Shown here: positions 9,773 to 25,440 of the stretch, piece after piece
Numbering within the stretch: the first letter of the stretch is position 1
Layout of the letters: each line of letters starts with the position of its first letter
Assembly (NCBI GenBank): GCA_947504045.1
Contig: CANNFY010000001.1
Coordinates: forward strand, 620,001-684,000
Length of the DNA: 64,000 nucleotides
DNA from: an uncultured Maribacter sp.
GTDB taxonomy: Bacteria > Bacteroidota > Bacteroidia > Flavobacteriales > Flavobacteriaceae
Reading direction: 5' to 3'
Notes under the pieces: generated by a model
Told to the model about the DNA's origin: nothing
What the model saw: the letters and a program-made list of their open reading frames with translations, nothing else
Databases searched by the model: none
Made by a program: the position numbers and the translations under genes

Positions 9773-9780
9773 ATTCTTAA

Positions 9781-10653
9781 TTATTTAACCAGTTTTTTTA
9801 AGTTACTTCTATATTTTGAAGCACTTTCCCCTGTAATTTCTTTAAATAGTTTATTAAAATGAGAAAAGTTGTTAAAGCCACACTCATAACATATATCTGT
9901 AATACTACTATCGCTTTCTTGTAAAAGTTTAGTAGCATGTACAACTCTATACTCATTTACCAATTTTGTAAATGTTTTACCTGTTACTTTTTTAAAATAT
10001 CTGCAAAAAGCAGGAACAGTCATACTGGCCGCATCTGCAACTTCTTCTAAAGGTATTTGATTTTTAAAATTACTATTTACATGTTTATAAATAATATCCA
10101 TTTTGGCAGTATCTTGTGGTTCTACTTCAAAACTAAATCCTTCAGGGTTTAAAACTCTATAATCGTCGGATAAAGACAGTTCATGTAAAACATCTAAAAA
10201 TTTAATTACTTTTTCATACCCTTCATACGTAACTAAAGCTTCAATTTTAGGGCCAATTTCTTGTTTAACTTTAGGGTTAAAGAGCAACCCTTTATTAGCT
10301 CTTTCAAAAAGGTTATTAATTTCTTTCATTTCAGGTAAATCAAAAAAAGTATCTCCTAAAAACTCTTTTTTAAATTGAATAATGGTTTCTTTCCCATTAT
10401 TAGTTATACCGTCTGTAAATCCTTTATGTGGAATATTAGCTCCTATTAATAAAAGCTGACTATTATTAAAATAAGATATATGGCTACCTACATGCCTTTT
10501 TCCATGTCCTTTATTTACATAATGTAATTCTATTTCTGGATGAAAATGCCAAAAAGCAGTTTTACTATCTAATCTTTCGGTACGTTGTACCATTAAAATA
10601 GAGCTTCCAAATTCTGAACTTAATTTTTTTAAAACTGGTTTTTTTATAATCAT
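9781..10653 (-). CDS. AraC family transcriptional regulator
   Basis: 290 residues. The N-terminal half is cupin-like (WHFHPEIELHYVNKGHGKRH), the usual sensor of sugar-type AraC regulators. The C-terminal 100 residues hold the two helix-turn-helix motifs (IPLEEVADAASMTVPAFCRY and DICYECGFNNFSHFNKLFKE). The ligand and targets are unknown. It has its own -7 box 18 bp upstream and DUF423 behind it. Confidence 0.92.
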   Translation of the reverse strand: MIIKKPVLKKLSSEFGSSILMVQRTERLDSKTAFWHFHPEIELHYVNKGHGKRHVGSHISYFNNSQLLLIGANIPHKGFTDGITNNGKETIIQFKKEFLGDTFFDLPEMKEINNLFERANKGLLFNPKVKQEIGPKIEALVTYEGYEKVIKFLDVLHELSLSDDYRVLNPEGFSFEVEPQDTAKMDIIYKHVNSNFKNQIPLEEVADAASMTVPAFCRYFKKVTGKTFTKLVNEYRVVHATKLLQESDSSITDICYECGFNNFSHFNKLFKEITGESASKYRSNLKKLVK

Positions 10654-10670
10654 AACAAAAAAATATTTTA

Positions 10671-10678
10671 CAAAGGTA
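10671..10678 (-). promoter_or_regulatory. -7 promoter box for the AraC gene
   Basis: Minus-strand TACCTTTG, a full match to TANNTTTG, 17 bp before the ATG. Confidence 0.55.
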
Positions 10679-10818
10679 CTACCTTCTTTTGTATTATTTA
10701 AAGAATTTTAACCCAAATGTATACTATATTAACCTGCGTTACAATAAGCAATAATTTAGTGGTTAATATAACATATAAATTGGTCAAATATGATGTTTTT
10801 AAAGCTCTAAAACGAACA

Positions 10819-10826
10819 TACATTTG
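10819..10826 (+). promoter_or_regulatory. -7 promoter box for the secreted protein at 10856
   Basis: TACATTTG matches TANNTTTG and lies 29 bp before the ATG, giving a leader of about 23 nt. Confidence 0.55.
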
Positions 10827-10855
10827 TACCATAATAAATATTAAAATTCTATATC

Positions 10856-11443
10856 ATGAAAAATATAATCAAAAACAGTTTAGTAGTAGTAATGTTATTA
10901 TCTACATTATTTGTAAGTGCAAATTCTAATTTAAGAGTTGAAAACGAAGATTTTAAAACAACAATATCTTTAAACAACCTTAAAGAAGGAAATAAAATAT
11001 TTATTAAAGATGCTTCTGGAAGTATACTTTATAGCGAAACAATTAAAACACCTGGAAATTATAATAAAAGTTTTGACTTAACTACACTTCCTAATGGAGA
11101 TTACTTATTTGAAATTAATAAAGGTTTAGAGATTAACACTATTTTATTTAATGTAAGAGAAACTGTGGTTGCTTTTGAAAAAGAAAATGAAAAAGTTATA
11201 TACAAACCATATGTAACTGTAGATAAAAATTTAGTGCGTGTTTCTAAATTATCTTTAGAAGAAAAACCTTTACAAATAGAAATTTTCTTTGATGATAATG
11301 GGTATAACCTAATACACACTGAAACAGTAGGTAAAACTAAAAGTATTAGTAGAGTTTATAGCTTAAATAAAGCTAAAAAAGGAAATTACAAAATAGTTAC
11401 AAGAACAGAAGGAAGAACTTTTGTAGACTATGTAAGCTTATAA
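10856..11443 (+). CDS. Secreted beta-sandwich protein, function unknown
   Basis: 195 residues. A signal peptide ends near LFVSANSN. The mature part reads as two Ig-like beta-sandwich units: about 30-95 (FKTTISLNN through LPNGDYLFEI) and about 115-195 (VRVSKLSLEEK through KKGNYKIVTR). Each ends with a G(D/N)Y motif of the kind found in C-terminal domains of exported Bacteroidota proteins. It is probably periplasmic or secreted. No catalytic motif is seen. It is monocistronic, with its own -7 box and a strong terminator. Confidence 0.75.
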   Translation: MKNIIKNSLVVVMLLSTLFVSANSNLRVENEDFKTTISLNNLKEGNKIFIKDASGSILYSETIKTPGNYNKSFDLTTLPNGDYLFEINKGLEINTILFNVRETVVAFEKENEKVIYKPYVTVDKNLVRVSKLSLEEKPLQIEIFFDDNGYNLIHTETVGKTKSISRVYSLNKAKKGNYKIVTRTEGRTFVDYVSL

Positions 11444-11471
11444 TTTAAAAATACCAACCAAATATATACCG

Positions 11472-11514
11472 ATCATGGTTAGAGGGGTAATACTTTCTAA
11501 CCATGATTTTTTTT
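11472..11514 (+). terminator. Rho-independent terminator after the secreted protein gene
   Basis: A 12-bp perfect stem (11472-11483 with 11496-11507), a 12-nt loop and a run of eight T residues. Confidence 0.85.
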
Positions 11515-11518
11515 AATT

Positions 11519-12031
11519 CTATTTAAAAGTATTTACTGCAACTACGTTGGGTTCTTTTTTTGTTAAGTATACTGGCGATGTTGTAAAAAGCTGTTCTACT
11601 TGGTTATCCCAGTCGCGAGCAATATTAAAATAACTGGTGTTGGTTACAGCCATTATCTCATTACAATCTTGACATGTGTGTTTATAATCTAAAAAATGAT
11701 GTGCAAACTCATGAAAAGCAACAACTTTTAAAATTTCGGGATCTAACATAGCTGCCCAATTAATTAAAATTTTATCTATTTCTCCTTCTTTATTACGAGC
11801 CACTTTGCCTAATACGGTATTATCTTCTTCTAATGGTAAATTAGTAACTATATCTATAGTGGTTAGTTGAAATAATTTAGAGTGGTAATCTATTCCGTAT
11901 TTTTCACATTCCTCAAAAAAATCGTTTAAAATAGGTTGTAAGCGGCCATCTATGTCTACACTCTTTTGCGCTTGTAAATAGGTAGTAATACTAAAAATAA
12001 ATACAAAAAAAACAGAAACGTACTTTTTCAT
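11519..12031 (-). CDS. Exported HExxH zinc-metallopeptidase-like protein
   Basis: 170 residues with a signal peptide (cleavage near YLQAQ). The zinc-binding helix is VVAFHEFAHHFLDYKH (HExxH at 107-111), followed by CQDC (120-123). Upstream, the text KILINWAAMLDPEILK is typical of small minimal metallopeptidases that survey for a buried helix. It is probably a periplasmic or secreted protease of unknown substrate. The third ligand is not certain: a histidine at 118 is one residue off the metzincin spacing. No clear promoter was found. Confidence 0.7.
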   Translation of the reverse strand: MKKYVSVFFVFIFSITTYLQAQKSVDIDGRLQPILNDFFEECEKYGIDYHSKLFQLTTIDIVTNLPLEEDNTVLGKVARNKEGEIDKILINWAAMLDPEILKVVAFHEFAHHFLDYKHTCQDCNEIMAVTNTSYFNIARDWDNQVEQLFTTSPVYLTKKEPNVVAVNTFK

Positions 12032-12168
12032 TGTAGGTGGTTTAAAAAGTTAGATTTGGTTGGTCTAAAAGATGTTTTTAGGGGAAGTATTTATCTTAAA
12101 GCCTTTTTATTCTAACGTTTAAACTCCTAAAATATTTCTAATTATCTGATTTTTAATTTTTTACAAAA

Positions 12169-12600
12169 TTAGTCTTCCAATAGCATTTTACTTTTAAAAA
12201 GAGACCATAGTGCTTGGGTTTCTAAACTATCTTTATGGTTTATGTATAATTTTAAAGAATCTTTATACACTAGTTTTATTTTCTGTTGCTCAAAATTATC
12301 AACAAATACATACACTTCTTTATCGGTAAGAGAGTCTTTAAACTCTCTATAAACACCTTTACCCTTAGAAAAAGCAGAAAAACCATTTAAACGTTCCATA
12401 GGAGGTATTCTATCAACAAAAGACACACTATCTACTTCTGTAAATTTTATTTTCTTATAATATATTCCAGAAACAATAGTAATACTATCTCCTTTTACTG
12501 TTGTCCAGTTTTTATAATGTACTGCAAAGGCTATACTACAAACCACTACAGTTAGTCCTAAAATTAAATTTCTTAACCAACTTGTATTTTTTAAAGCCAT
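12169..12600 (-). CDS. Hypothetical membrane-anchored protein
   Basis: 143 residues: one N-terminal TM helix (about 9-27) then a soluble, probably periplasmic, beta-rich domain (GDSITIVSGIYYKKIKF, VYVFVDNFEQQKIKLVYKD). The fold may resemble bacterial PH-like domains; that is a guess. It lies 97 bp downstream of the Pel-like operon on the same strand. Whether it belongs to that transcript cannot be told. Confidence 0.6.
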   Translation of the reverse strand: MALKNTSWLRNLILGLTVVVCSIAFAVHYKNWTTVKGDSITIVSGIYYKKIKFTEVDSVSFVDRIPPMERLNGFSAFSKGKGVYREFKDSLTDKEVYVFVDNFEQQKIKLVYKDSLKLYINHKDSLETQALWSLFKSKMLLED

Positions 12601-12697
12601 ACTAATTTTTTGTATTCGTTTTAATATACCTAATTGTTGTACAAATTAAATATTTAATTACGATGAATTTACTTTACAACTTTTAAACGTACGAATT

Positions 12698-15600
12698 TTA
12701 CTTAAAATTATAGGACAACCCTAATTGAATAACATTAGAAAAGAAATTTTCTATAGTATAAAACTCATAATTTACTTTAAGCTTGGTATAATCGGTAATT
12801 TTATAAGATACTGTGCCTAAATATCTTTCAAAATTACGTGCGTTTTTTTCAGCAAAAATTCCAACATCTGCAGATAAGTTAAATTTACTTTTTTCGGAAC
12901 CTAGAACAAAAAGTGCTCCGGCTCCGGCAAAAAATCTTTCTTTTGCTATCCAATAAGGAAAACCATTTCTACGATCTCTACTACCAACACCAAAGGCTCC
13001 TTCTATTAATGGAGATACTTTAAATTTATCAAATCCAATTAAATTATATTCTAGTCTTGCAGATAATGTATGATCATATTCCTCGTCTGTATAATAATTA
13101 GATTCTAAAGAAGTTATGGGCTTTAATTTTTTTCCTATTGGCATTTCTTTATAACCAGAAAATTGAATCCTATATATATTTAAATTATACCCAGGTCCTG
13201 ATTGTACCGGATAAGCATCTAGTTGAAAAGCGGTAAAATTCTTTTTCTTAGAATAGCTTACATTAGCCATACCTTGAAAAAAGAAATCTCCAAAATTATC
13301 TCTTTCTACTCTACCTAGTAAACCATATTTATATTTTTTACTAGACTTCTTGGTATATTGGTATGCTACTCCAAATAAGTTGTGGTCTACATTTTCAACT
13401 CTTCTTCGAAACCCAATTAATCTATTCATATTACTTTGGGTAATAGAAAAGCTATGCATATTTCCTTTTTGGTTGTGGGTATTATAGCTTAACATATTAG
13501 ATAAAGCTATGGGTCTAAATTTATCATTAATACTAAAAGAACCAAAACTAATAGAGGACCCTTTATCTTGTCTCATTTTTTTTTCAATTTCCTTTGCTAT
13601 ATCTGGGTCTAACAAATCTCCGTATTTTCTAAAAAGGTCTAGTTGGTTTTTTAAGTCTAAGCCCTTAACTTCTTTATTTAATATTCTTTTATATTTTTCA
13701 TCAATTTTATGATTAGGTATACTAAACGCTATTCTAGCAGATTCTTCCACTTCTCCTTCATACAGCATTAGGGTAGCCATAAAAGAACGTACTTCATAAT
13801 CTTTAGAGTTATTTGTAATGTAGCGTTTATATTCTTTTTTTAACTTGTGTATATTACTGGTTTCATATAACCAAGTCATTTTATCTTTTATCTTAATTTC
13901 AGTAGAACATTCTGCCCATTGCAGTGCTTTTTTATAATTGCCATAATCTGCAAAAGATGTTGCAATTTTAGTAGACAGTTGTTGTAGTTCTTTTGTACAA
14001 CTTTCTTTATTTTTAAGTTCTTGCACAGCTTTTCTACCGTCATTAGCTAAGAGCAAAGCTATATAATAAGGAAAGTCTTTCTCTTTCATTTTTTCAAAAT
14101 TTGACGAGCTTAACAACCAAAAATCTTTAGTTTCTTTAGAAATTTCATTTGCGCATTTTTCCCATTCTAGAGCTTTATCAAAACGTAAATTATCTGCAAA
14201 TGTCCAAGCTATTGTATTTGCTAAAGTTTTATACTCTTTATTACATGGTTGTATAGCCAACAACTCATCTATAGTATCATCATACTTATTTTCTAATAGG
14301 TGATTTATATACTGTTCTGCATTTTTAGAATTAGATTGAAGTGTAACTAACTTTTTTAAAATACTTCGTATCTGCTCATGATTTTCAGGTGTATTAAAAT
14401 AATCTACATATTCTTTTAAAACAGCAACATCTTTTGTTTTCCATTCTATTTGTCTAGTTAACCATTGCTTACGAACAATGTTATTAGGATACCCAGCTGT
14501 GGCTTGGATAGTTCTAGAAATATCTGCATTATTTTTAGATTTAAACCTTAAATAATATTTGTTTAAATTAACCCATACTTCTTTTTCTCTTTTTTGCCAA
14601 GCCATATATTTGGTGTATTCTTCCCATAAATCGGAGCTTGCATCTGGGTTTGTTTTAAAATTATCTTCTATTAAATCTGTAGCTTTTTTTAATTCACCAT
14701 CTGCCACATATCTGTTAACCAAATCTATCATAGGAGCCATTAATGCCTTATTTTGTAAATACAAACTATAGGCTTTATTAACCTCAGCTAAAACAACATT
14801 ATCTGGTTTATTTACGCCGCCATATTTGCCAAATAAATCTGGCACAGATATAGACGGGTTTCTTGTTTTTATAGAATATAAAAAACCATCTAACATTACT
14901 GTTTTTTTAACCTCTGCTTCCGTGTTTTTTAATAAATCATCTACTAGATTAGTATTGGTATTATCTACATACATTAACCAAAAGTTACTTTTATCTTTAT
15001 TTTTTGCGTTACTACTTTCCACCTCATATAAACCATCAAAATTAGAATGCCTATAGTATGTGTAACGCCAATCCATAGTTTGCTCGGATGCTTTTGTTGC
15101 ATTTAAAAACCTAGCGAAAGGATGGTCTCTTTTATACCTAGAAAGATAATCTTTAAAAGTATCTAACATTCCCTTTTTTCCATTATTAGAATACCAATTT
15201 AGCTTGTGTTTATTTCTATAACTAAAATGGCCACTTGTTGCAGCGTTAGATGCGTCTGGAATTTGGTATACATCATCTGGATGCACAAAATGTGTCCATA
15301 TTCCGGTGCATATATACATAGACTCTATTGCCCAAGTATTTGTTTTTTCAAGAACATAGCCACTGCTTATTCGTGGAAAATCGAAAAATTTATCATTATA
15401 CGGATCTGGACCAAATTCTCTATTTCCGCCTTCTTCTAAAGTTCCTAAATAAATACTTTGAATATATTTAATACTAGGCATTCCTTTATTTAATTTTGCT
15501 AAGCCAACACTATCTATATAATTAGATGGAGGCACATAAGAAATTGGTAAATTTTTAAAATCTAATACCTTCCATTTTTTTTCTGCAGCATCTAATCCTG

Positions 15601-16702
15601 TAACAATATATTCTGGATTTTTCCAGTCCGATTTTAATAACGAAACATGATTATAGCCATGAAAACCAAGTTCATGTCCACTCTTAATTATATCTCGTCC
15701 TATCCAAGCACTTAATTTTTGATTAGAGCCGTCTTTAACTACTGTGTTTCTATCCCACTCTTTAAAAGTAAATGGTGGTACTACTTCTGCATTATAATCA
15801 AAAGTTACGTATGCTGTGTATTCTATATTTTCTTGTGTAGCTAATTTTTTCATATCAGGCCACCATACATCTTTCACATAATCTGTAACTGTTAAATTTA
15901 GTTCCGACTTAATAGGCTCTTTGTAAATACTATAAGTTGGAGAAGGAAAATCATCTAAAAAAATAGTTGCAACATTTGCTATAGGATAAGGTATACCTTC
16001 TAACCCTTTAAGAATACTAGAAAACATAAAGCCACGCATGCTTTTATTTAGTAACGTAGAAGAGTTAAAAAACATAACCCTACCTTTTCCAATCTTATTT
16101 TCTAGTAATACCGGGTAATCTTTATTGTTAGTTGCACTAACTAAAACCTGTGCATTGTCTGAAAAATTACGTCCAGAAAACCCTAAATGTAAACCATCAT
16201 CTGTATACTTTAAACCCTGTTTGCCTGGAAAAATTGGAGCCTTTAAATGGTACCCTTGTGCGGTTAAATTAGTTTCCCAATTAGCATCCGGATTAAGACC
16301 TATTAAAAATGCTATACGTTCGTCTCTTATAGCTTTAGTAAGGTATAATGTACCTCCTTTAGCCACAAAATTTAAAATTGCTTTAAGTGCATCATCATTT
16401 AAATAGGTAGTTTCATAAACACATAAAACCCTAGTTGTAGGTGCTATATTTTGATTTTCATTAAAATTGGTAATATAAATATTCTGATAAGGTATTTTTG
16501 TATAGTCTAATGCTTGGTGCAAATTTTTGCTTTCTAAAGCATTAGTATATTCGTTTTTACTTATTAAAAATTGAACCAATGGTAGTTCTTTACTTTTTTC
16601 AGGAATACTAAACTCATGAGAAAACCTATATATATCTCTTTGGCAACTTAGTGTAAGCCCAAGTAATAAGAGTATAAATCCGAATTTTATTTTACACCTC
16701 AT
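12698..16702 (-). CDS. Pel-like fusion lipoprotein: Rossmann-like, deacetylase, TPR and outer-membrane barrel
   Basis: 1334 residues. A lipoprotein signal (LTLSC, Cys20) leads to four modules. (1) About 40-235: a Rossmann/amidotransferase-like domain. (2) About 240-530: a NodB-like polysaccharide deacetylase domain, with metal residues in IFLDDFPSP (Asp250-Asp251) and GHELGFHGYNH (His348, His352), and a late HFVHPDD. (3) About 655-1040: TPR-like helical repeats. (4) About 1048-1334: an outer-membrane beta-barrel ending in SYNFK. Modules 1 and 2 match the second and third domains of PelA; 3 and 4 match PelB. The likely role is partial deacetylation and export of a Pel-like polymer. Its ATG overlaps the upstream stop by 4 bp (ATGA), so it is the last gene of that operon. 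Confidence 0.82.
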   Translation of the reverse strand: MRCKIKFGFILLLLGLTLSCQRDIYRFSHEFSIPEKSKELPLVQFLISKNEYTNALESKNLHQALDYTKIPYQNIYITNFNENQNIAPTTRVLCVYETTYLNDDALKAILNFVAKGGTLYLTKAIRDERIAFLIGLNPDANWETNLTAQGYHLKAPIFPGKQGLKYTDDGLHLGFSGRNFSDNAQVLVSATNNKDYPVLLENKIGKGRVMFFNSSTLLNKSMRGFMFSSILKGLEGIPYPIANVATIFLDDFPSPTYSIYKEPIKSELNLTVTDYVKDVWWPDMKKLATQENIEYTAYVTFDYNAEVVPPFTFKEWDRNTVVKDGSNQKLSAWIGRDIIKSGHELGFHGYNHVSLLKSDWKNPEYIVTGLDAAEKKWKVLDFKNLPISYVPPSNYIDSVGLAKLNKGMPSIKYIQSIYLGTLEEGGNREFGPDPYNDKFFDFPRISSGYVLEKTNTWAIESMYICTGIWTHFVHPDDVYQIPDASNAATSGHFSYRNKHKLNWYSNNGKKGMLDTFKDYLSRYKRDHPFARFLNATKASEQTMDWRYTYYRHSNFDGLYEVESSNAKNKDKSNFWLMYVDNTNTNLVDDLLKNTEAEVKKTVMLDGFLYSIKTRNPSISVPDLFGKYGGVNKPDNVVLAEVNKAYSLYLQNKALMAPMIDLVNRYVADGELKKATDLIEDNFKTNPDASSDLWEEYTKYMAWQKREKEVWVNLNKYYLRFKSKNNADISRTIQATAGYPNNIVRKQWLTRQIEWKTKDVAVLKEYVDYFNTPENHEQIRSILKKLVTLQSNSKNAEQYINHLLENKYDDTIDELLAIQPCNKEYKTLANTIAWTFADNLRFDKALEWEKCANEISKETKDFWLLSSSNFEKMKEKDFPYYIALLLANDGRKAVQELKNKESCTKELQQLSTKIATSFADYGNYKKALQWAECSTEIKIKDKMTWLYETSNIHKLKKEYKRYITNNSKDYEVRSFMATLMLYEGEVEESARIAFSIPNHKIDEKYKRILNKEVKGLDLKNQLDLFRKYGDLLDPDIAKEIEKKMRQDKGSSISFGSFSINDKFRPIALSNMLSYNTHNQKGNMHSFSITQSNMNRLIGFRRRVENVDHNLFGVAYQYTKKSSKKYKYGLLGRVERDNFGDFFFQGMANVSYSKKKNFTAFQLDAYPVQSGPGYNLNIYRIQFSGYKEMPIGKKLKPITSLESNYYTDEEYDHTLSARLEYNLIGFDKFKVSPLIEGAFGVGSRDRRNGFPYWIAKERFFAGAGALFVLGSEKSKFNLSADVGIFAEKNARNFERYLGTVSYKITDYTKLKVNYEFYTIENFFSNVIQLGLSYNFK

Positions 16703-18678
16703 AAATCAAAAATTAAATCGTTTAATTTTGAAGAATTTTCTTTGTTTACAATTTCATAAACCGTTAAAAAATTGTCTTCAAAAAATACTTTTACTATACG
16801 CCCTCTTGCTTTAAGAACACTTATTTGAGATTTTATATTTAAAGTTGTTTCATCTTTAATTTTAAAGTTTTCATCTGTAGAGTTTTTATTGTTTTTAGGT
16901 AAAAAAACAAAAACACTATTAGGAAGTATACTGCTAGAATTTTTTTTCATTAATTCTTCATCATCTTTTATTATTTGAAAAACAGAATCTCTCTTGGCAT
17001 AGTGTTTTGCAAATATTTTATAGTTTATAAAGTGATGTTGACTCTTACTAATACTACGGCCATAATCTTGATTTACAACAGCATAAGAATACGGTAAGTA
17101 ATTAGTAGACAAATTATTATAAACCAATAAAATATCTGTCTTAAGTTCGTCTGTTTTTTTAAAATCATATTTAAAAAAACTATTTGTTACGTACGATATA
17201 ATAATTAACATTGTAAATATTAGTCCTATACTTAACCCTCTATACTTTCTGTTTTTAGGAATAGATAATCTAAAATAGTGTACTAATATTCCACTAAAAA
17301 TTCCTATTAAGAGTATGATTAATACAGATAGTGTTTGGTAATATAAATCTATATCTATCCAAGTCCATTGTGCCCATTTTAAACTTAAAACTAGGTTAAC
17401 AAAAATTATAAATACCATTGCTGGCTTCCACTTTATTTTATTTTTAAAATACAATGGCAACAATCCTAATAAGGTAAGAGCTCCAATAACTAGGTATACT
17501 AGTACTAACTGATCAATATTTATAATTAACTGTGGAAAATAGGTGTATACATCTACTAAAATCATGTTTTCTCTTAAAAAAGAGAATAAAGGTCTACCTG
17601 TATACCAACAGGCTATTGCATGAATACTAAAAACTAATAAAATTGCTAGCACATAACTTAGTATACTACTTAATACATACGGTTTAGTTTTTTTTGTAAT
17701 AAATACTAATGCTGTAACCAAAAATATAGGAAGTACTATTATTGCTGTAAATAAATTAATAAACCCTAGAGCAGTATAAATTATAAATAATAGTATAAAA
17801 TAATTACGTTTTTTATTTGATAATAAATTAGGTAGTACTGTAAACAACATTGCTGGCAATGCAAAGCAAATAGCCAAATACAACGCATTATGCTCTAATA
17901 ATAAGTTTATATTTATTGGTAAAAACTTATAACAGAACCCAAAAAATATAACCCCAATCATAGGTGCTAAAAATTTGGATTTAGTAATATTAACTATTAC
18001 CCAGTATACTATTAAGCTTACAGCAAAGGTTTCTAATAAGCCAAAAGAATGCACTGCCATTTCTTCACTTATACCAGTTATTTTACTGTAAAAATTTATA
18101 ATTGCATTTTCTCCTAAAAGATTAAAACCTGTTGTAAACCATTTGTTTTCGTTAAATTGTTTAACAAAATCTAAGTTTTGTACCCATAAACTAGAAAGGG
18201 TATATAAATCGTTTTTTAAGAAAAAGTATCTAGATATAAAGCAAGCCAATGAAACAGCAAAAGCTGTTACCATCATAAAATTAATTTTATTTGGTATAAA
18301 TACATTAACGCCATTTTTAAATTGTTTAAAGAAGTTTGGTTTTTCTTCCATAAACCTAAAAAAAGTAAGTAAAAAAGTTTTTCTTTTTTTCTGTATTTGA
18401 CTCGCAGAATTTTTAAGATCGCCTAATCCTAAATATAAGTACAGGAGTAGTCCAAAGAACAAAAATAGTAGCGAAAAAATATCGTACATATTAAGTTGAA
18501 CCAACACAAAAATTACCACTAATAAAACGCTTCCAAATAGTATAGACCGCCTAACAATATAATTTAAATTATAGGTTTTTGTAGGTTGCTTTGTTACAAT
18601 TTGGTGTATTATAAAAACTCCCAAAAAAAGGAAGAAAATTCTAATAGGCCCTAAAAGTACATTATCTAAAACTACCAT
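16699..18678 (-). CDS. Polytopic membrane protein of the Pel-like locus, GT-C-like build
   Basis: 659 residues with about 13-14 TM helices up to residue 500 and a soluble tail of about 150 residues (KTDELKTDILLVYNNL, KSQHHFINYKIF). The loop after TM4 (LWVQNLDFVKQFNENKWF) and the tail resemble GT-C membrane glycosyltransferases, but no diagnostic motif is visible. It sits where PelD and PelE would be expected, and I see no GGDEF, GAF or c-di-GMP-binding (RxxD I-site) pattern convincingly placed. It could add a sugar or lipid step, or form part of the synthase complex. It is 7 bp from the upstream gene and overlaps the downstream gene by 4 bp. Confidence 0.6.
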   Translation of the reverse strand: MVVLDNVLLGPIRIFFLFLGVFIIHQIVTKQPTKTYNLNYIVRRSILFGSVLLVVIFVLVQLNMYDIFSLLFLFFGLLLYLYLGLGDLKNSASQIQKKRKTFLLTFFRFMEEKPNFFKQFKNGVNVFIPNKINFMMVTAFAVSLACFISRYFFLKNDLYTLSSLWVQNLDFVKQFNENKWFTTGFNLLGENAIINFYSKITGISEEMAVHSFGLLETFAVSLIVYWVIVNITKSKFLAPMIGVIFFGFCYKFLPININLLLEHNALYLAICFALPAMLFTVLPNLLSNKKRNYFILLFIIYTALGFINLFTAIIVLPIFLVTALVFITKKTKPYVLSSILSYVLAILLVFSIHAIACWYTGRPLFSFLRENMILVDVYTYFPQLIINIDQLVLVYLVIGALTLLGLLPLYFKNKIKWKPAMVFIIFVNLVLSLKWAQWTWIDIDLYYQTLSVLIILLIGIFSGILVHYFRLSIPKNRKYRGLSIGLIFTMLIIISYVTNSFFKYDFKKTDELKTDILLVYNNLSTNYLPYSYAVVNQDYGRSISKSQHHFINYKIFAKHYAKRDSVFQIIKDDEELMKKNSSSILPNSVFVFLPKNNKNSTDENFKIKDETTLNIKSQISVLKARGRIVKVFFEDNFLTVYEIVNKENSSKLNDLIFDL

Positions 18679-18685
18679 TAAATAC

Positions 18686-19492
18686 CTATTTAAATTTTGG
18701 AATAAATTGTAAATTTATTTGCCCTACAAATGCTGACAATTTCATTTTTTTTAGTGCGCCTTCAATAACTTTTTTCATCTTAAAAGTTTCTGCATATTCT
18801 ATTACATAAAAAGGTACATTTACCTTTTGTTGGGCTAACTTAATATCGTTAATTCTTTGTTTTTTTGTTACAGCATCTCTTAATTCATATGTATTTGTAT
18901 TAAAATTATACGAACTAATTACAGATTCTACTACAACCGCATCTGTTATGTTTTGAAGCTCTTTTACCATAAAAAGGCCTGCATTTTGAACTAAATAAAG
19001 AGATTCATTTTCTTTTTTAAGGGCTTTTAAAAAATGTACTAAATCCTCTTTTTGATTATATAATTTCCCCCATTTAGAAACATTATCTAGGTTATCTAAA
19101 AATAAACCTTGAATGCCTTTTTTCTTTATTTTATAAATTAACTCTACAAGTACTTTTTGCGCTTTTTTGTCTTTTAAATTTATATAATGGCTATTCCATA
19201 TTTTATTTTTTCCAATAGTATATGGCTTAATATCTTTATAAAATGACGCGTTTTCGTTTACTTCGGATAAACTTATATAGGCAACAACTTTTTTATTATT
19301 CTGATTAAAAATTGCTATTTCAGATGCAGTATAGTGTTCAGACTCTAAAATTACAAGCTCATACCCTTTTACCAATTCTGGTTTTATTTTACCATAACAA
19401 ACAAACAACTTATCCATAGTATTATTGGCTAAATGAGTTTGAGATGTTCCCATAAAAGGAAGTAAAAAGTATAGTATTTTAATAAGCCGCAT
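18686..19492 (-). CDS. Exported PelA-hydrolase-like (GH166/GH114-type) glycoside hydrolase
   Basis: 268 residues. A signal peptide (1-19, ending near GTSQT) is followed by one TIM-barrel domain in canonical strand order: YELVILE (44-50), KVVAYISLSEV (68-78), QGLFLDNLDN (128-137), LYLVQNAG (165-172), VVVESV (186-191) and PFYVIEYAE. The acidic residues Asp133 and Glu189 sit where the PelA hydrolase and GH114 enzymes have theirs. PelA's hydrolase cleaves the GalNAc/GalN-containing Pel polymer; here it is a stand-alone protein. Its start overlaps the end of the PelG-like gene by 14 bp. Confidence 0.75.
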   Translation of the reverse strand: MRLIKILYFLLPFMGTSQTHLANNTMDKLFVCYGKIKPELVKGYELVILESEHYTASEIAIFNQNNKKVVAYISLSEVNENASFYKDIKPYTIGKNKIWNSHYINLKDKKAQKVLVELIYKIKKKGIQGLFLDNLDNVSKWGKLYNQKEDLVHFLKALKKENESLYLVQNAGLFMVKELQNITDAVVVESVISSYNFNTNTYELRDAVTKKQRINDIKLAQQKVNVPFYVIEYAETFKMKKVIEGALKKMKLSAFVGQINLQFIPKFK

Positions 19493-21086
19493 AATAGTGA
19501 TAGTCTAATTTTTTAAAAAATAAAATTGTTTCTCTAAGAGTTAAAATCATAAACAAACCTGCGCCAACTAACATACCAACCACACTATATTCATAACTTA
19601 TTGTTCTACTTAAAACAAACCCAACAATAAAATTAATAATACAAGCTATGGTAATTGCACGTAAAGGTCCTCTAGGCACATCTAGCGTAAATAGGTATAA
19701 AGAATTAAGCATTCCCCATGTAAGAAACAAGTAACCTATGCTTCCTATTATACATACTTTAATACTTATAAATTTTAGGCTTTCTCCAAAATTTGCTTGG
19801 TAACCCCAGGGCTGGGTAATTAATAAATAAATAAAGGTTGTAGTTAAAAGTGCTGTTAGCAACAATAAAGAAACATGTCCTAAATACATTTTAAATAAAC
19901 TTCTATTAAATAGCTTTTTATCTACTAATAAGGTATTGCGTTGTTTAATATCTAAAAACTTACTAAAAGAGGCTATTGCATACTCCAAAACACCCGCTAA
20001 CATAAAAAATATAAGAATGGCAATATCCATTCCTATTTCATAATCTTTTTCATAAAGGAAGATAAATTGATGCGTTAATTTTATATCTGAAGACCATGCT
20101 AAAATTCTATCTATAAAAATAAATACATAGATAAGCATGCCATAAAAAAAGTATCTGTAATTTTTATAAATTACCATTAACCTTTTGGGTCTTAATGTTT
20201 CTTGTGTGTAAGAACCTTTTTTCTTATTAAAAAAGAATTCTAAAAAAAGTTTAGATATAAGTATAGCTACTGTAATACCTATCCAATGTGTTACATATAT
20301 ATTTACTGTTGTATATAATTTAAGCACTAGAGCTATACCGGTAGCTAATAATATTGCTAAAGAAATTACCCAACGCTGCCTTATAGTATGAAACGGTGCA
20401 GAAACTAAAAGTAATAACCCTATTAAAAAAGCATAAATACTTGTTATTAATACAAATGAAAAAGGGTAAAGATTAAATAGAAAGTTTATTGTAGCAATAC
20501 CTAAAAAAGATACAAGCAACCCTTTTATACCAGATGAAATTAACTTATTAACCACCATTTTTGCTTGTTTATACTCTTGGTGGTGCCAATAAAAAGATGC
20601 TTGCCTACCAAGCACTTGAACATAGCCGCCAGAAACTATTAAACCTATAATTACACCAAATACTACAGAGGTAGATTGTACAATATTAAACCCAATAAAT
20701 GCCCATAAAGAATACCCAAAAACTATAATTGATGCTATTTGTAAAAATATTGGAAGTAAATGAAAAATACCTAAAGGGTAAAATTGTACTAGTAACTTTG
20801 TTTTTATCCATAAATAGCTAGAAACTGGTACAACAGTGTTTTTTTGTTTTTCTTTATTTAGTTCGTTTACATTTTTTAAAGTATCTATATGCCTACTTTT
20901 TAAATCTTCATATACATGTTTTGCTAGGTCTGAAATGGAAACAAAACCATAATCTGAAAAAACATCTTTATCTCTAATACCAAAAGATTCTAGTGTAGCT
21001 AAAACAACCATTACACTAACAGGGTTTCCTATTTTGTCTATTACAGAATTTGTAACATTTTCTAAATTTTTATGCAGACTTTTCAT
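19479..21086 (-). CDS. pelG: PelG-like exopolysaccharide transporter
   Basis: 535 residues with about 12 TM helices from residue 100 on, in the MOP-flippase style of PelG. Signature spots are the cytoplasmic SGGYVQVLGRQASFYWHHQ, FIFIDRILAWSSD, and YEIGMDIAILIFF followed by a charged helix, all like PelG. PelG with PelF forms the inner-membrane Pel synthase/transporter. Residues 1-100 form an extra cytoplasmic domain (GNPVSVMVVLATLESFGI, SISDLAKHVYEDLKSRH) that canonical PelG, as I know it, lacks. It follows pelF by 28 bp. Confidence 0.82.
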   Translation of the reverse strand: MKSLHKNLENVTNSVIDKIGNPVSVMVVLATLESFGIRDKDVFSDYGFVSISDLAKHVYEDLKSRHIDTLKNVNELNKEKQKNTVVPVSSYLWIKTKLLVQFYPLGIFHLLPIFLQIASIIVFGYSLWAFIGFNIVQSTSVVFGVIIGLIVSGGYVQVLGRQASFYWHHQEYKQAKMVVNKLISSGIKGLLVSFLGIATINFLFNLYPFSFVLITSIYAFLIGLLLLVSAPFHTIRQRWVISLAILLATGIALVLKLYTTVNIYVTHWIGITVAILISKLFLEFFFNKKKGSYTQETLRPKRLMVIYKNYRYFFYGMLIYVFIFIDRILAWSSDIKLTHQFIFLYEKDYEIGMDIAILIFFMLAGVLEYAIASFSKFLDIKQRNTLLVDKKLFNRSLFKMYLGHVSLLLLTALLTTTFIYLLITQPWGYQANFGESLKFISIKVCIIGSIGYLFLTWGMLNSLYLFTLDVPRGPLRAITIACIINFIVGFVLSRTISYEYSVVGMLVGAGLFMILTLRETILFFKKLDYHYYAAY

Positions 21087-21114
21087 GAAGAAAAAAAGGG
21101 GGATTTACTAATTT

Positions 21115-22626
21115 TTAATTTAGAATTAAATTGGTGGTTTTTTGACCTAAATTCTGATAGGTTTTTTCAAACGATTTTATAAAAGTTTCAATTGTAAAAT
21201 TGGCTGTTACTTTATTTCTTGCATTTTCTCCCATCCAACTTCTTAGTTGCTGATTTTCTAATAGTTTTACTACATTTTGTGCAATTTCTACGTAATCTTT
21301 TGGTTTGCAAACCAGACCACAGGTATCATCTATAGCTTCTGTAACCCCTCCAACATCTGTAGCAACAACAGGAATACCACAACTCATAGATTCTATTACT
21401 GTAAAAGGAAAACCTTCTGAAATGGAAGTTAATATAGATATGTCTCCTTCAGAATAAATTAGTTCTGGTTTATTATGAAATCCTTTTAAGAAAAAATTAT
21501 TTTCAACCTGTAGTTCTTTAATTAAATTTTCGCACTCAAGTGTATATTCTGGCACTGCATTTTTATTACCATAAATTAAGAACTGTACTTTGGGTATTTT
21601 TTTAACTACCTCTGCACAGGTTCTGATCATTGTTAAAATATCTTTTAAATCAAAAATTCTAGCTGCAGCTACTACCGTAGGTATATTTGTTAAATGCTCG
21701 GGTTTTGGTCTTGGTTTAAATAAATTTTCGTCTACGCCATTATATATAACTTCTATTTTAGATAACTCTGCTCCATAAAATTTTTCCCAAGAGACATTAA
21801 ATTTACTTACTGTAGTAATTTTTGACGCATGATAATAGACTAATTTTGTAATACATTCTGAAAAATTAATTAGCATCTTTTTTAAAAAATAAGAATAGTC
21901 TGCAGTGCTTATTGCAATTAAGCGCTCTCTAATAAAAACGCCATGTTCTGTTACTAAAATTGGTGTATTATATTTATACTTTAAAGCTAAAGCTGGTATA
22001 ACAGCAATTCCTGAAATAGTTATATGTGAAATATCCATTTTAGGAACTTCAATAGCCATTGGTATAAGAAAACGATATATCCAACGCATTGCGGTAGTCA
22101 TATCTTCTAACGGTATTCTATTTAATTCGTCTTCTGGTAAAACATTAGAAATTACTTCGCAGAATGTGTTCCAAACTGCTTCACTAGTCATTGTTTTTTT
22201 GTAGTCATATTTCTGAAAAAAACGCCACATTTTATAAAAACAAATATTTAAAGTTTTTAAAGAGTGTGTTTCTGCATAAATTTCTTCTATAAAAGATTTA
22301 AAATTAGGAACAAAAGAATTTACAATTATATCTTCCGATGTAAATTCTCTAGCCTTTAGTATTTTAGAATATTTTATGTTGTAGTTTACACAATCAAAAG
22401 GTTCTTCAGGAGACCACATTGGAACCTGAATAATGTTTTTTACATTATTGGTTAATGTATATCTAGGGGTTACTTCTACTCCTGCATTTATAGAATATAA
22501 AGTAAAATCTATCCCTTTTGTTTTAGAGCATAAATCATGAGCCCAAGTAGAAACCCCTCCTCCATTGTACGGATATGTACCTTCTGTAATTAGAAGTACA
22601 TTAATAGGATTTTTAGATTGTGTCAT
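21115..22626 (-). CDS. pelF: PelF-like GT4 glycosyltransferase
   Basis: 503 residues, close to the length of PelF. The N-terminal signature LITEGTYPYNGGGVSTWAH (13-30) is the PelF hallmark. A GT-B fold with a GT4 nucleotide-sugar site follows: EGFPFTVIESMSCGIPVVATD (about 403-424), read as the E-x7-E motif and glycine-rich end. PelF is the cytosolic glycosyltransferase that polymerises the Pel sugar from UDP-GalNAc/GlcNAc. 137 bp separate it from the upstream lipoprotein gene, so the five-gene run pelF to the fusion lipoprotein may have its own promoter, which I could not find. Confidence 0.9.
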   Translation of the reverse strand: MTQSKNPINVLLITEGTYPYNGGGVSTWAHDLCSKTKGIDFTLYSINAGVEVTPRYTLTNNVKNIIQVPMWSPEEPFDCVNYNIKYSKILKAREFTSEDIIVNSFVPNFKSFIEEIYAETHSLKTLNICFYKMWRFFQKYDYKKTMTSEAVWNTFCEVISNVLPEDELNRIPLEDMTTAMRWIYRFLIPMAIEVPKMDISHITISGIAVIPALALKYKYNTPILVTEHGVFIRERLIAISTADYSYFLKKMLINFSECITKLVYYHASKITTVSKFNVSWEKFYGAELSKIEVIYNGVDENLFKPRPKPEHLTNIPTVVAAARIFDLKDILTMIRTCAEVVKKIPKVQFLIYGNKNAVPEYTLECENLIKELQVENNFFLKGFHNKPELIYSEGDISILTSISEGFPFTVIESMSCGIPVVATDVGGVTEAIDDTCGLVCKPKDYVEIAQNVVKLLENQQLRSWMGENARNKVTANFTIETFIKSFEKTYQNLGQKTTNLILN

Positions 22627-22763
22627 TTATGTTTTCTTATTTGTCTACGTATTAAAACAAGCTCAAAGAAAACACTTAATTAAGGTAAGTTAATTTTTAT
22701 TAGCTAAAGCAATGCATTTAATCTATAAAACGACATATACATTGGCTTGATCGATATAATACA

Positions 22764-23783
22764 CTACTCGTTATAGTTCTCAAAATACTCAAAAGCATCA
22801 ATAATATCTAAATAAACACCATCAAAACCTGTAGAAATAATTCGGTCTAAATAAGCATCATCATTACCATAAATTACATTTTGCCATTCTTCTTCCCAAT
22901 AGCGAACTTTATAATTACCTGGCCAATTTTCATTCTCTTTATCTAACCAAACTGGTTCATTATCGTCCCAATCTGTATTCCAATAATATCTGTAATCTTC
23001 CGCCTCTCCAATAGACATGTAACAGAGCACTAACCTTTGGCCGCCATCTGGTTTTGATTTTAATTTTTCTATGTCTAATTTAGAAAATGGAGTGCCATCA
23101 TTAAAAAACAAATCTAAAAAAACTGCATCGTAATTAGAGTTACCTACCTCGGTTAACAAACTATTTTTTGTGTCATACTCTTCATAATTAAGCATAAATA
23201 AAAAATTCTCTGCTTTATGTAAAGAAGACACTTCTCTATTAGATTGTTTGTTTAAGCTAATTGGAGTGTCTGGTATTAGTGTTAGGTTTCTTTCTGTAGC
23301 TACAAAAGGTATATACCCTAATTGATAATTTTGTGCATAGGCATCTTCTACTTTAGAGTCGGAAGAACAATAATCTATAGTAAAAATAGAGTTTCCATAA
23401 TTTTTAGAAACATTTAGTAGCTCTACATAATAATTTGTTATTTCTTCATCTGTAGCTATATTATCTCTTTTGTAACCATAAAATAAATTTTCTTGGCCAT
23501 TACCATCTATAGCTTCTAAATATTCTTTACTTGGCACACCATCTGCATTACCGGTATTGGTTACTAATTCTATACCGTTTTGGGGTATTATAGAAAAATC
23601 TGAATTTATATCTTTTGCATGTTCGCTTAAGCCAATTACAAAAGAGCGCATATCTTCTCTAAAATCTCTATTTTCTATGGTAGAAACAGTATTTTCCTCT
23701 GTTTTAATTGTGGAATTAGTCGTGTTTTTTTCGCACCCTGCATTTAAAATAAATAAAAACAGTAGAAATTTTATAAAACTCAT
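22764..23783 (-). CDS. GH114/TM1410-type putative glycoside hydrolase lipoprotein with swapped half-barrels
   Basis: 339 residues from the ATG at 23783. A further in-frame ATG at 23822 is rejected because the -7 box lies between them; the chosen start gives a proper lipoprotein signal (NAGC, Cys17). Segments typical of the C-terminal half of the family come first: REDMRSFVIGL (42-52), FSIIPQNG (63-70), YLEAIDGNGQENLFYGY (88-104), IPFVATERNL. Those of the N-terminal half follow: NFLFMLNYEEY (193-203), MSIGEAEDYRYYW (256-268), NWPGNYKVRYW, GFDGVYLDIIDAFEY (319-333). The family (COG2342) is linked to endo-alpha-1,4-polygalactosaminidases. The role is probably trimming of the Pel-like polymer at the cell surface. 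Confidence 0.75.
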   Translation of the reverse strand: MSFIKFLLFLFILNAGCEKNTTNSTIKTEENTVSTIENRDFREDMRSFVIGLSEHAKDINSDFSIIPQNGIELVTNTGNADGVPSKEYLEAIDGNGQENLFYGYKRDNIATDEEITNYYVELLNVSKNYGNSIFTIDYCSSDSKVEDAYAQNYQLGYIPFVATERNLTLIPDTPISLNKQSNREVSSLHKAENFLFMLNYEEYDTKNSLLTEVGNSNYDAVFLDLFFNDGTPFSKLDIEKLKSKPDGGQRLVLCYMSIGEAEDYRYYWNTDWDDNEPVWLDKENENWPGNYKVRYWEEEWQNVIYGNDDAYLDRIISTGFDGVYLDIIDAFEYFENYNE

Positions 23784-23808
23784 ATTACGTATAGTTTGTA
23801 AACTACCA

Positions 23809-23816
23809 CAAATGTA
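23809..23816 (-). promoter_or_regulatory. -7 promoter box at the head of the Pel-like cluster
   Basis: Minus-strand TACATTTG, a full match to TANNTTTG, 25 bp before the ATG at 23783. It decides the start codon of the lipoprotein gene. Confidence 0.6.
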
Positions 23817-23867
23817 ATACATATTTATACTCCGTTTAAAAAAGTGATTTATTCGCTTTTATATTAT

Positions 23868-24689
23868 TTAACCCAATCCAACGTCTAAAGTCATCATTAC
23901 AATAAAACCACCAATAAAACCCATTACAGCAATATCTGTGTGTTTATCTTGTTGTGTTTCTGGAATAACTTCTTCTACTACAACAAAAATCATAGCTCCT
24001 GCTGCAAAGGAAAGTGCATAAGGCAATATGGGCTGAAAGGTAAGTACTGCCCATGCTCCAATTACTGCAGCAATTGGTTCTACTAGCGCAGATGCTTGCC
24101 CAAACATAAAACTTTTTGTTCTACTTAAACCTTGTCTTCTTAATGGCATTGCAACTGCAAATCCTTCAGGAAAATTCTGAAGTCCAATTCCTAATGCTAA
24201 AGCAACTGCGCCACCTATAGAGGCTCCATCAAAACCAGCTGCAACACCACCAAATAAAACTCCAACTGCTAAACCTTCTGGAATATTATGTAAGGTTATG
24301 GCAAGTGTTAATAGTACTGATCGGTGCCAAGGGGTTTTTAAACCTTCTTTTTCACTTTCTTTAAAATTTATATGTAAGTGTGGTAACACCTTATCTAAGC
24401 CAAATAAAAATAAAGCTCCTAATAAAAACCCTACTGCAGCAGGTATTACTTTTACAAAGCCTTCTCCAGGACTCATTTCTATACCGGGCGCCAATAAACT
24501 CCAAAAACTTGCGGCTACCATTACCCCTCCTGTAAATCCTAACATACCATCTAAGACGGCTCTATTCATGGTTTTAAATAAAAATACTAATGCTGCGCCT
24601 GCTGCAGTTAATACCCATGTAAAAACTGTAGCATAAAATGCTGCTAAAATTGGATCTATAGATTCTAAATATGCTATTACTTGTTCCAT
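23868..24689 (-). CDS. ZIP family metal transporter (GufA-like)
   Basis: 273 residues with eight predicted TM helices. The metal-binding motifs of TM4 and TM5 are LHNIPEGLAVGV and LQNFPEGFAVAMP, the GufA-subfamily pattern. ZIP proteins import Zn, Mn or Fe. It begins 2 bp after the DtxR-family gene, so the repressor and transporter form one operon; this suggests manganese, zinc or iron uptake under metal control. Confidence 0.93.
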   Translation of the reverse strand: MEQVIAYLESIDPILAAFYATVFTWVLTAAGAALVFLFKTMNRAVLDGMLGFTGGVMVAASFWSLLAPGIEMSPGEGFVKVIPAAVGFLLGALFLFGLDKVLPHLHINFKESEKEGLKTPWHRSVLLTLAITLHNIPEGLAVGVLFGGVAAGFDGASIGGAVALALGIGLQNFPEGFAVAMPLRRQGLSRTKSFMFGQASALVEPIAAVIGAWAVLTFQPILPYALSFAAGAMIFVVVEEVIPETQQDKHTDIAVMGFIGGFIVMMTLDVGLG

Positions 24690-24691
24690 TA

Positions 24692-25348
24692 CTATTCTAT
24701 TATTCTTAAATATAGGTTAGATGCTATTTGGTTAGATATTTGTATATCTACATCTCTAATTTTTATTTGTAAAGAACCATCAAACTCTTCTTTATCTACT
24801 ACAAAAATAGAATCTCCTAAAGCTATTTTATTTTTATCTAGAAATTTTAAAAATGCTCGTGAAGAATCTTTTACTCCAACACATATACCTTCTTTACCAA
24901 CTGGCACTTCATTTAATAATCTTTTAATAGATTTTTTAAACTCGCCATTTTTAGAGGGTATTGGGTCTCCATGAGGGTCTATTTGCGGAAATCCTAAATG
25001 TTTATCCAACATATCTATAAGCTTTTCGCTTTTTATATGTTCTAATTGCTCTGCTACTTCGTGTACCTCATCCCAAGAAAATTCTAACTTTTCAACCAAA
25101 AATACCTCCCAAAGTCTATGCTTTCGCACAATAGATAGTGCCACTTTTATACCATACTCCGAAAGAGTAACACCTTGGTACTTTTTATAATTTACAAGAC
25201 CTTTTTCAGATAATTTTTTAATCATATCACTAACAGAAGATGGTTTAGTTTCCATTTTTTCTGCAATAGCATTTGTAGAAACTGTTCCTTGCTCTCCTTT
25301 ACCTAAGTGGTATATAATTTTAATATAGTCTTCCTCTGAAAGCGTCAT
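24692..25348 (-). CDS. DtxR/MntR family metal-dependent repressor
   Basis: 218 residues: a winged helix-turn-helix (1-60; TNAIAEKMETKPSSVSDMIK), a metal-binding and dimerisation domain (about 65-140; RKHRLWEVFLVEKL, EVAEQLEHIKSEKL) and a C-terminal FeoA/SH3-like domain (about 150-218). With bound Mn or Fe such proteins repress uptake genes. It heads an operon with a ZIP transporter and is divergent from a TonB receptor gene. A DtxR-type inverted repeat lies between them. Confidence 0.93.
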   Translation of the reverse strand: MTLSEEDYIKIIYHLGKGEQGTVSTNAIAEKMETKPSSVSDMIKKLSEKGLVNYKKYQGVTLSEYGIKVALSIVRKHRLWEVFLVEKLEFSWDEVHEVAEQLEHIKSEKLIDMLDKHLGFPQIDPHGDPIPSKNGEFKKSIKRLLNEVPVGKEGICVGVKDSSRAFLKFLDKNKIALGDSIFVVDKEEFDGSLQIKIRDVDIQISNQIASNLYLRIIE

Positions 25349-25365
25349 TAAATTTTCATTTAAAA

Positions 25366-25395
25366 CAAAAATACATTTTTATTACTAAAAACAAA
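25366..25395 (-). promoter_or_regulatory. Promoter for the DtxR-family/ZIP operon
   Basis: Minus-strand -7 box TATTTTTG (25366-25373), an 18-nt spacer and a -33 TTTG (25392-25395). It abuts the DtxR-type inverted repeat at 25397-25414, so the operon is probably autoregulated. Confidence 0.6.
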
Positions 25396-25396
25396 T

Positions 25397-25414
25397 ATTT
25401 AGATTTGTCTAAAT
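25397..25414. promoter_or_regulatory. DtxR/MntR-type operator
   Basis: A perfect inverted repeat ATTTAGA-TTTG-TCTAAAT (7-bp arms, 4-nt spacer) of the general DtxR-family form TTAGxxxxxCTAA. It overlaps the -7 box of the TonB receptor gene and touches the -33 box of the divergent repressor gene. Occupancy would block both. Confidence 0.65.
25400..25407 (+). promoter_or_regulatory. -7 promoter box for the TonB receptor gene
   Basis: TAGATTTG matches TANNTTTG and is embedded in the inverted repeat. It rules out a TTG start at 25405 and supports the ATG at 25441. Confidence 0.6.
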
Positions 25415-25440
25415 TTAATTTTCCACTAATAAAAATATTA

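Follow-up and report, generated by a model that had tools for sequence, protein, structure and literature searches.

The closest described relatives of the locus discussed here are the Pel exopolysaccharide (EPS) systems. In Pseudomonas aeruginosa, pelABCDEFG encodes a PelF family synthase, a PelA-type hydrolase, a de-N-acetylase of family CE21 and an exporter combining tetratricopeptide repeats (TPR) with a 16-strand barrel, the latter being common to PelB, BcsC and PgaA (PMC12141448). The Gram-positive systems (pelDEA_DAFG in Bacillus cereus and Streptococcus intermedius) retain PelD and PelE, and separate de-N-acetylase (PelA_DA) and hydrolase (PelA_H) proteins are known from Gram-positives (PMC7112168). 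B. cereus PelA_DA, the founding member of CE26 and CBM114, de-N-acetylates alpha-1,4-linked N-acetylgalactosamine (GalNAc) and is described as a barrel-free protein of ~610 residues that crosses the membrane once (PMC13254593). Moreover, Pel without cyclic di-GMP (c-di-GMP) is already known in streptococci, whose PelD lacks GGDEF and does not bind the nucleotide (PMC7112168, PMC12345266). Here we describe a Pel-like locus in 64,000 nucleotides (nt) of an uncultured Maribacter sp. of the Flavobacteriaceae (GCA_947504045.1, contig CANNFY010000001.1, positions 620,001 to 684,000; this whole stretch is referred to as the window). The host genome is 99.7% complete.

The locus is a compact run of six genes on the minus strand, read from window position 23822 down to 12698, that encode H1, a PelF-like protein, a PelG-like protein, H2, a 659-residue membrane protein and DATB. 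It probably specifies a machine spanning the cell envelope, by which a Pel-like polysaccharide based on alpha-1,4-GalNAc is made, trimmed, partly de-N-acetylated and exported, in a host without detectable c-di-GMP synthesis. Its PelF family synthase, PelA-type hydrolase and de-N-acetylase and, by fold, its TPR and 16-strand-barrel exporter are held in common with P. aeruginosa. In contrast to that system, PelC, PelD and PelE were not detected in the locus, the hydrolase is a separate protein, a protein of predicted GT-C glycosyltransferase (GT) fold is added, the PelG-like protein is very diverged and the deacetylase is CE26-like and fused to the exporter. These families and fold classes, the fusion and the conserved active sites are read from sequence or from structure models. 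What is new is the fusion of deacetylase and exporter, the predicted GT-C partner and the distribution of the locus in Bacteroidota; no description of such a fusion, or of Pel in Bacteroidota, was found in the open-access literature searched, mostly at the level of titles and abstracts.

The predicted deacetylase-exporter protein DATB

DATB matches DUF2194 at 245 bits, and its residues 58-486 align with B. cereus PelA_DA (PDB 9zau) at E 6.9e-44. The residues named for PelA_DA (D262, D263, H350, H354, P405, R458, H488 and D491; PMC13254593) have the counterparts D250, D251, H348, H352, P391/P392, R444, H474 and D477 in DATB, all kept in 98/98 distinct sequences (107 alignment rows, nine of which are repeats). 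The spacings from R to H and from H to D are identical in the two proteins (30 and 3). By sequence, the deacetylase of DATB is of the Gram-positive CE26 kind, the same CE26/CBM114 family as in the Gram-positive systems, with a predicted activity. Because of the 9zau match, DUF2194 gains a likely function as a Pel-type de-N-acetylase.

From residue 572 on, the AlphaFold2 model (mean predicted local distance difference test score, pLDDT, 89) consists of a helical superhelix followed by 16 long strands. The helical part has profile matches to pentatricopeptide repeat (PPR) and TPR proteins in the PDB (best E 9.1e-7). With the C-terminal part as query, Foldseek ranks 1-5 in the PDB are all EPS exporters: BcsC (three entries, best 2.6e-11), 4y25 ("polysaccharide outer membrane secretin"; 6.1e-8, target template-modelling (TM) score 0.71), which we take to be PgaA, and chain 9h80_M of PelBC, taken as PelB (6.8e-7). 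Because a CE26-type region is joined to a TPR and barrel fold like that of EPS exporters, DATB appears to unite in one chain what P. aeruginosa splits between PelA (the deacetylase) and PelB. The initial annotation had proposed a changed split of PelA and PelB, and this is what is found: the exporter carries the deacetylase, while the hydrolase is a protein of its own. DATB is a single open frame of 1268-1349 residues in 23/23 genomes with a strong DUF2194 match (at least 193 bits) among 296 sampled Bacteroidota; one match just over the cut-off (30.8 bits) and 13 below it fall outside this set.

The plasmid locus of Cetobacterium somerae (L065) has a DUF2194 deacetylase, GH114, PelF and PelG in common with the window. 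It differs in that the DUF2194 protein is unfused (609 residues), PelG is canonical (420 bits), a GAF protein stands in the place of PelD and no relative of the 659-residue protein was found. As a separate observation, DUF2194 looks like an unrecognised Pel-type deacetylase of Fusobacteriota loci (L065 and L151). In Fusobacterium nucleatum, a DUF2194 gene tops the table of genes down-regulated in coculture with Porphyromonas gingivalis (log2 -6.0; PMC9848294).

PelF-like synthase, PelG-like transporter and hydrolases

The PelF-like protein passes the cut-off of the NCBIfam PelF model NF038011 (157 bits; cut-off 100) and matches DUF3492 at 211 bits, with E404 and E412 invariant in 14 sequences. 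H2 matches GH114 (55 bits) and the PelA structure 5tcb (molecule name PelA; E 1.3e-12), is found by a model of two canonical PelA sequences (E 1.2e-21) and keeps D133 and D136 in 92/92 distinct sequences. These matches, together with the DUF2194 match of DATB, bear out the description of the locus as Pel-like in the initial annotation. As in the bacilli, the hydrolase is a separate protein.

H1 has a Pfam GH114 match of 65 bits and a TIGR01370 match of 185.3 bits (cut-off 181.25). Among the plasmid loci, a model of 5 H1 proteins finds its best matches in the GH114 proteins of Fusobacterium (E 3.5e-62) and Cetobacterium (E 6.5e-58). H1 is present in 33 of the 70 named loci that span the whole run (see below), on the opposite strand in 9 of the 33 and downstream in 2. 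A DUF4832/DUF4874 protein occurs in 29/70, never together with H1, and 8/70 have neither; this exclusivity may largely be explained by species relatedness. The DUF4874/DUF4832 gene (L094:13901-15526 and 28 other loci, all without H1) is convergent to DATB, and its product has a type IX sorting tail in L094; the protein may be a further hydrolase acting on the polymer of the locus.

The PelG-like protein of the window matches PF16933 over most of the model at 10.5 bits, under the cut-off of 29. The profile search against Pel families proposed in the initial annotation is hence clear for PelF and weak for PelG. When the 15 proteins of one alignment (A2) are each scanned alone, 7 match PF16933 at E<=1 and 2 exceed its cut-off, at 33.2 and 29.4 bits. 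The PelG-like set aligns with a set from Deinococcus, Streptomyces and Thermus (hhalign E 2.8e-6 over 147 columns), with an N-terminal region in common. Moreover, a model of the three proteins from these genera finds 76 of 102 PelG-like rows among 83 matches, and the 12 matches below 1e-3 are all PelG-like. By sequence, the PelG identity of the transporter is suggested weakly.

Among the sequences compared, the nearest to both the PelF-like and the PelG-like protein come from Deinococcus, Streptomyces and Thermus. In the PelF tree (27 rows: 7 of the 70 named-locus PelF, 9 from other loci including the window, 10 from plasmids and one second GT4), the Bacteroidota stand with these three genera and apart from proteobacterial and Cetobacterium PelF (99/100 support, branch 2.67), in a tree with long branches (Thermus, Cetobacterium, the second GT4) and uneven composition. 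This topology is a strong lead, not proof, for a PelF lineage of two branches. Because its PelF groups with those of Deinococcus, Streptomyces and Thermus, the Bacteroidota locus may represent a second Pel lineage rather than a reduced pel operon. "Rearranged", as the locus was first called, thus captures the Pel likeness and undersells this affinity.

The loci of the three genera (L061, L062 and L147) have in common with the window the PelF branch, the PelG-like N-terminal domain and GH114-type genes (by annotation); PelC, PelD and PelE are neither annotated there nor found by models. They differ in having no relative of the 659-residue protein and no DATB match, and the Deinococcus and Thermus loci carry an Agd3-like (CE18/CBM87) deacetylase, the Streptomyces counterpart lying below the Agd3 cut-off. 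With their PelF, PelG-like and GH114-type genes, these plasmid loci are bacterial galactosaminogalactan-like clusters. A clean rule equating the second lineage with absence of PelD is contradicted by the Sulfitobacter locus (L066), which has no PelD by annotation, model or Pfam and a PelF on the proteobacterial side of the tree.

Gene order and distribution in Bacteroidota

The initial annotation had placed six open reading frames (ORFs) on one strand between 12698 and 23783. All six are where it put them, with one correction: the ATG-started ORF of the first gene extends to 23822, not 23783 (Table 1). From PelF to DATB, the genes overlap or lie at most 28 nt apart (PelF-PelG gap 28 nt, PelG/H2 overlap 14 nt, gap between H2 and the 659-residue protein 7 nt, overlap of the latter with DATB 4 nt), and the gap between H1 and PelF measures 137 nt.

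Table 1. Features of the Pel-like locus, in window positions, from the first gene to the last
Feature	Position	Strand	Length (aa)	Basis or remark
H1, GH114 (MJ1477/TM1410 type), putative lipoprotein endo-alpha-galactosaminidase	22764..23822	-	352	Accessory, absent from some loci
Conserved noncoding stretch between H1 and PelF, possible promoter or operator	22627..22763	-		Alignment of 9 sequences
PelF-like GT4 synthase	21115..22626	-	503	NF038011, DUF3492, E404/E412, tree position
PelG-like inner-membrane transporter with extra N-terminal domain	19479..21086	-	535	PF16933 10.5 bits, hhalign
H2, separate and probably exported protein with a PelA-type hydrolase domain	18686..19492	-	268	5tcb, PelA model
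Polytopic membrane protein, predicted GT-C fold and C-terminal alpha/beta domain	16699..18678	-	659	AlphaFold2, Foldseek
DATB, lipoprotein-like fusion of deacetylase, TPR and outer-membrane beta-barrel	12698..16702	-	1334	DUF2194, 9zau, AlphaFold2, Foldseek
DATB residues 58-486, CBM114/CE26-like de-N-acetylase region	15245..16531	-		Alignment to 9zau
DATB residues 634-1047, TPR-like helical superhelix	13562..14803	-		AlphaFold2 helices, PPR/TPR profile matches
DATB residues 1050-1332, 16-strand beta-barrel	12707..13555	-		AlphaFold2 strands, Foldseek

The scan of named loci covers the best 80 of 154 confirmed loci. Both ends of the run are contained in 70 of them, and the remaining 10 lie on short contigs or close to the ends of contigs. 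The order PelF, PelG, H2, 659-residue protein and DATB is identical in 70/70 of the spanning loci (DATB is split in one, L139), an outcome of the neighbourhood survey suggested in the initial annotation that is not due to chance. By their titles, the named loci belong to Flavobacteriaceae genera, Flavobacteriaceae or Flavobacteriales bins, unclassified Bacteroidetes and one bin labelled Sphingobacterium. The same five-gene order holds in 29/29 loci of a second genome set, nine of which are also among the named loci; H2 is split in one (L040), and 19 have one gene between PelG and H2. Among the 296 sampled Bacteroidota, a PelF over the cut-off, the strong fused DUF2194 and the gene of the 659-residue protein are found in the same 23 genomes. 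The latter gene was seen in 22/296 by a first search, and the 23rd carrier (G243, of family f30) was found by profile.

In two other families (f23 and f12), the loci have three extra genes in 19/19 cases: a response-regulator-domain protein at the start, a second GT4, and an HD_5 protein between PelG and H2. The HD_5-domain protein contains HDIG in 19/19 and the motif HHE..G.G.P in 16/19, and a model of it has no match at E<=1e-5 in the 80 named loci. The extra genes of G243 encode a second GT4, a GAF and HD_5 protein and a GAF and SpoIIE-phosphatase protein. HD_5 proteins with HDIG are encoded, for example, at L036:5579-7135 and L045:10820-12451, and GAF-SpoIIE stands next to GAF-HD_5 in G243 (L160:4983-8559).

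Upstream of PelF, TAGATTAA and the TTTT-TTTG columns are kept in 9/9 aligned intergenic sequences (the window, 7 of the same genus and 1 of the same family), and this conserved noncoding block is a possible control site. An Rfam search of 9000-26000 gave no match, and a promoter scan found fewer sigma-70-like sites than in shuffled sequences. Genes around the run are not part of the core. Relatives of a neighbouring 143-residue gene product (12169-12600) occur in 18/80 loci at variable distance, and those of a ZIP transporter and of a regulator that we presume to be DtxR-like are near the run in 15/80 loci each.

The 659-residue protein, the product and its control

The 659-residue membrane protein was left unnamed in the initial annotation. 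It has no Pfam or NCBIfam match, 17 relatives give chance-level Pfam matches only (best E 0.058), and a profile search of the PDB returns nothing beyond a single match at E 1.4. In a Foldseek search with its AlphaFold2 model (pLDDT 86, predicted TM score, pTM, 0.86), ranks 1-16 are GT-C enzymes or complexes containing one (E 6.8e-5 to 0.045), namely DPY19, oligosaccharyltransferase/STT3, PglB, AftD, ALG12, AftA, ArnT, ALG3 and AftB, several of them with more than one entry. From rank 17 onward, unrelated membrane proteins make up the matches shown, at a probability of at most 0.20. The model suggests that the protein likely has a GT-C fold, with sugar transfer as a predicted activity. The predicted fold is what it has in common with the GT-C superfamily (DPY19, STT3/PglB, AftD, ArnT), from which it differs in having no detectable sequence similarity. 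GT-C enzymes carry an acidic residue in the first extracytoplasmic loop. D157, which follows helix 134-156 and precedes two short helices, may occupy this place; residue 157 is D in 77/77 distinct Flavobacteriaceae-type sequences. No GT-C protein in a Pel system was found in the open-access literature searched, among the matches listed. Two other identities were tried in weak tests with single sequences. Neither PelD and PelE, of which the protein could have been a diverged form, nor the 716- and 715-residue proteins of Deinococcus and Streptomyces (the Deinococcus one is Agd3-like) show similarity to it.

The presence of such a protein bears on the nature of the product. The run could combine Pel-like export with a different amino-sugar polymer, for example a heteropolymer that the GT-C-fold enzyme helps to branch or cap, or a chain attached to lipid or protein. 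We regard this as rather unlikely. The GT-C-fold protein is present in all 23 sampled Bacteroidota carriers and is not annotated in the canonical pel loci compared, a second GT4 accompanies the f23 and f12 loci, and the PelF branch is shared with Deinococcus and Thermus, whose Agd3-like deacetylases point to a galactosaminogalactan-like product. However, both H2 and the CE26-type domain come from families in which the members that have been tested are active on alpha-1,4-GalNAc (PMC12022489, PMC13254593), in keeping with a Pel-like polymer.

The initial annotation further reported that PelC, PelD and PelE were not visible and that the locus lacked a c-di-GMP receptor, and both observations stand. 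Models of the three proteins, built from four canonical loci and each able to find the held-out Azospirillum gene, have no match at E<=0.01 in the window or in 111 fetched stretches (29 loci of the second set, 80 named loci, nine of which repeat the former, and 2 overlapping stretches of G243), the PelC and PelE searches being confined to the loci. Cetobacterium-based PelD and PelE models, which find the Fusobacterium proteins, are silent in the same targets. PelD_GGDEF was found in 0/30 host genomes and in 2/2 control records; a scan of the 296 sampled Bacteroidota, including G243, also gave 0 matches, in this case with no control matched. GGDEF itself has no match in the genome of the window, in a test whose control was found in 8/14 genomes. 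It is present in 2/29 other host genomes and has no match in 27/29 (G243 is outside both the GGDEF test and the 30-host PelD_GGDEF test). An ordinary pel operon with its PelC, PelD and PelE genes elsewhere in the genome is thus very improbable and, for a GGDEF-type PelD, largely refuted, even though pel loci have been reported to be gained or lost, and pelA and pelB to be rearranged (PMC7112194); the position of PelF off the branch of the proteobacterial PelF compared argues in the same direction.

A locus for degradation or uptake of foreign galactosamine polymers would suit the Flavobacteriaceae as polysaccharide degraders and the presence of two GH114-type hydrolases, a deacetylase and, 1.6 kb beyond H1 on the opposite strand, a TonB-dependent receptor (25405-27729), but we give this reading hardly any credence, as a GT4 of the synthase type, a PelG-like transporter and a barrel resembling those of EPS exporters belong to the core, and relatives of the receptor are near the run in only 10/80 named loci.

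For the synthesis and export of a Pel-like polysaccharide, we infer the identity of the polymer, the GT-C activity, the control and the order of events as follows. The PelF-like GT4 would polymerise UDP-GalNAc in the cytoplasm, a supply of which is plausible because of a galE match (406 bits) elsewhere in the genome. The PelG-like protein would move the chain across the inner membrane, and the GT-C-fold protein would act beside it on the periplasmic side, in the simplest case by adding to the chain a sugar taken from a lipid carrier. The chain would then enter the periplasmic end of DATB, be de-N-acetylated by the CE26-type domain, follow the TPR groove and leave through the barrel. One polypeptide would thus carry out modification and export where P. 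aeruginosa uses PelA, PelB and PelC, and the separate hydrolase H2 (and H1) would cut the chain. No regulator was identified in the window operon. From the absence of PelD and PelE, synthesis would probably be controlled by gene expression, and the different control mechanism proposed in the initial annotation would be of this kind. The HD_5 protein as a c-di-GMP sensor that replaces PelD is unsupported for f23, where GGDEF is absent in 17/17 hosts (it is present in the 2 f12 hosts). Because 17/19 of these hosts lack GGDEF, home-made c-di-GMP is an unlikely ligand of the protein in the 17.

Several results count against this model. The pTM of the DATB model is 0.52, making the arrangement of TPR and barrel uncertain. 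A two-sequence PelB model, insensitive as it is, matched neither DATB nor any control, so that the likeness to PelB is one of fold only. The GT-C assignment derives from the predicted fold, with no PDB or Pfam sequence match; the GT-C matches have query TM-scores of 0.25-0.40, and only ranks 1-10 reach E<=0.001. Residue 157 is N (17), H (2) or S (1) in 20/20 other distinct sequences, of which 17/20 have E168. For the transporter, hhalign to canonical PelG gives E 0.016 over 407 columns with a probability of 2.8%, and a model of 7 canonical PelG matches 1/102 PelG-like rows (E 0.069) among 62 matches. Because the canonical model fails to separate PelG-like proteins from unrelated ORFs, the assignment to PelG is weak. 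Gene order differs in G243, where H2 precedes PelF and two genes lie between the 659-residue protein and DATB. The canonical PelD and PelE models also miss the Cetobacterium counterparts and are therefore of limited reach. Finally, no experiment on a GalNAc polymer in Bacteroidota was found in the literature searched.

A bolder version, which we put forward tentatively and think doubtful, is that an ancient second lineage of Pel-type synthases never used PelD and PelE. In Bacteroidota, its cytoplasmic GT4 polymerisation would be coupled to a periplasmic GT-C step that draws on a lipid-linked sugar. The resulting galactosamine polymer would be branched or capped, and a single bifunctional protein of the outer membrane would both deacetylate and export it.

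As a natural fusion, DATB acts as a "Rosetta stone" for the coupling of PelA and PelB proposed from P. aeruginosa structures (PMC12022489, PMC12141448). The locus also suggests that export without PelC in the locus is workable, in a field where the need for PelC has been called puzzling (PMC12022489, PMC12141448). For the Bacteroidota, including Flavobacterium, Maribacter and Cellulophaga species, the run is a candidate biofilm-matrix machine, and it offers a system for studying Pel synthesis without PelD and without c-di-GMP.

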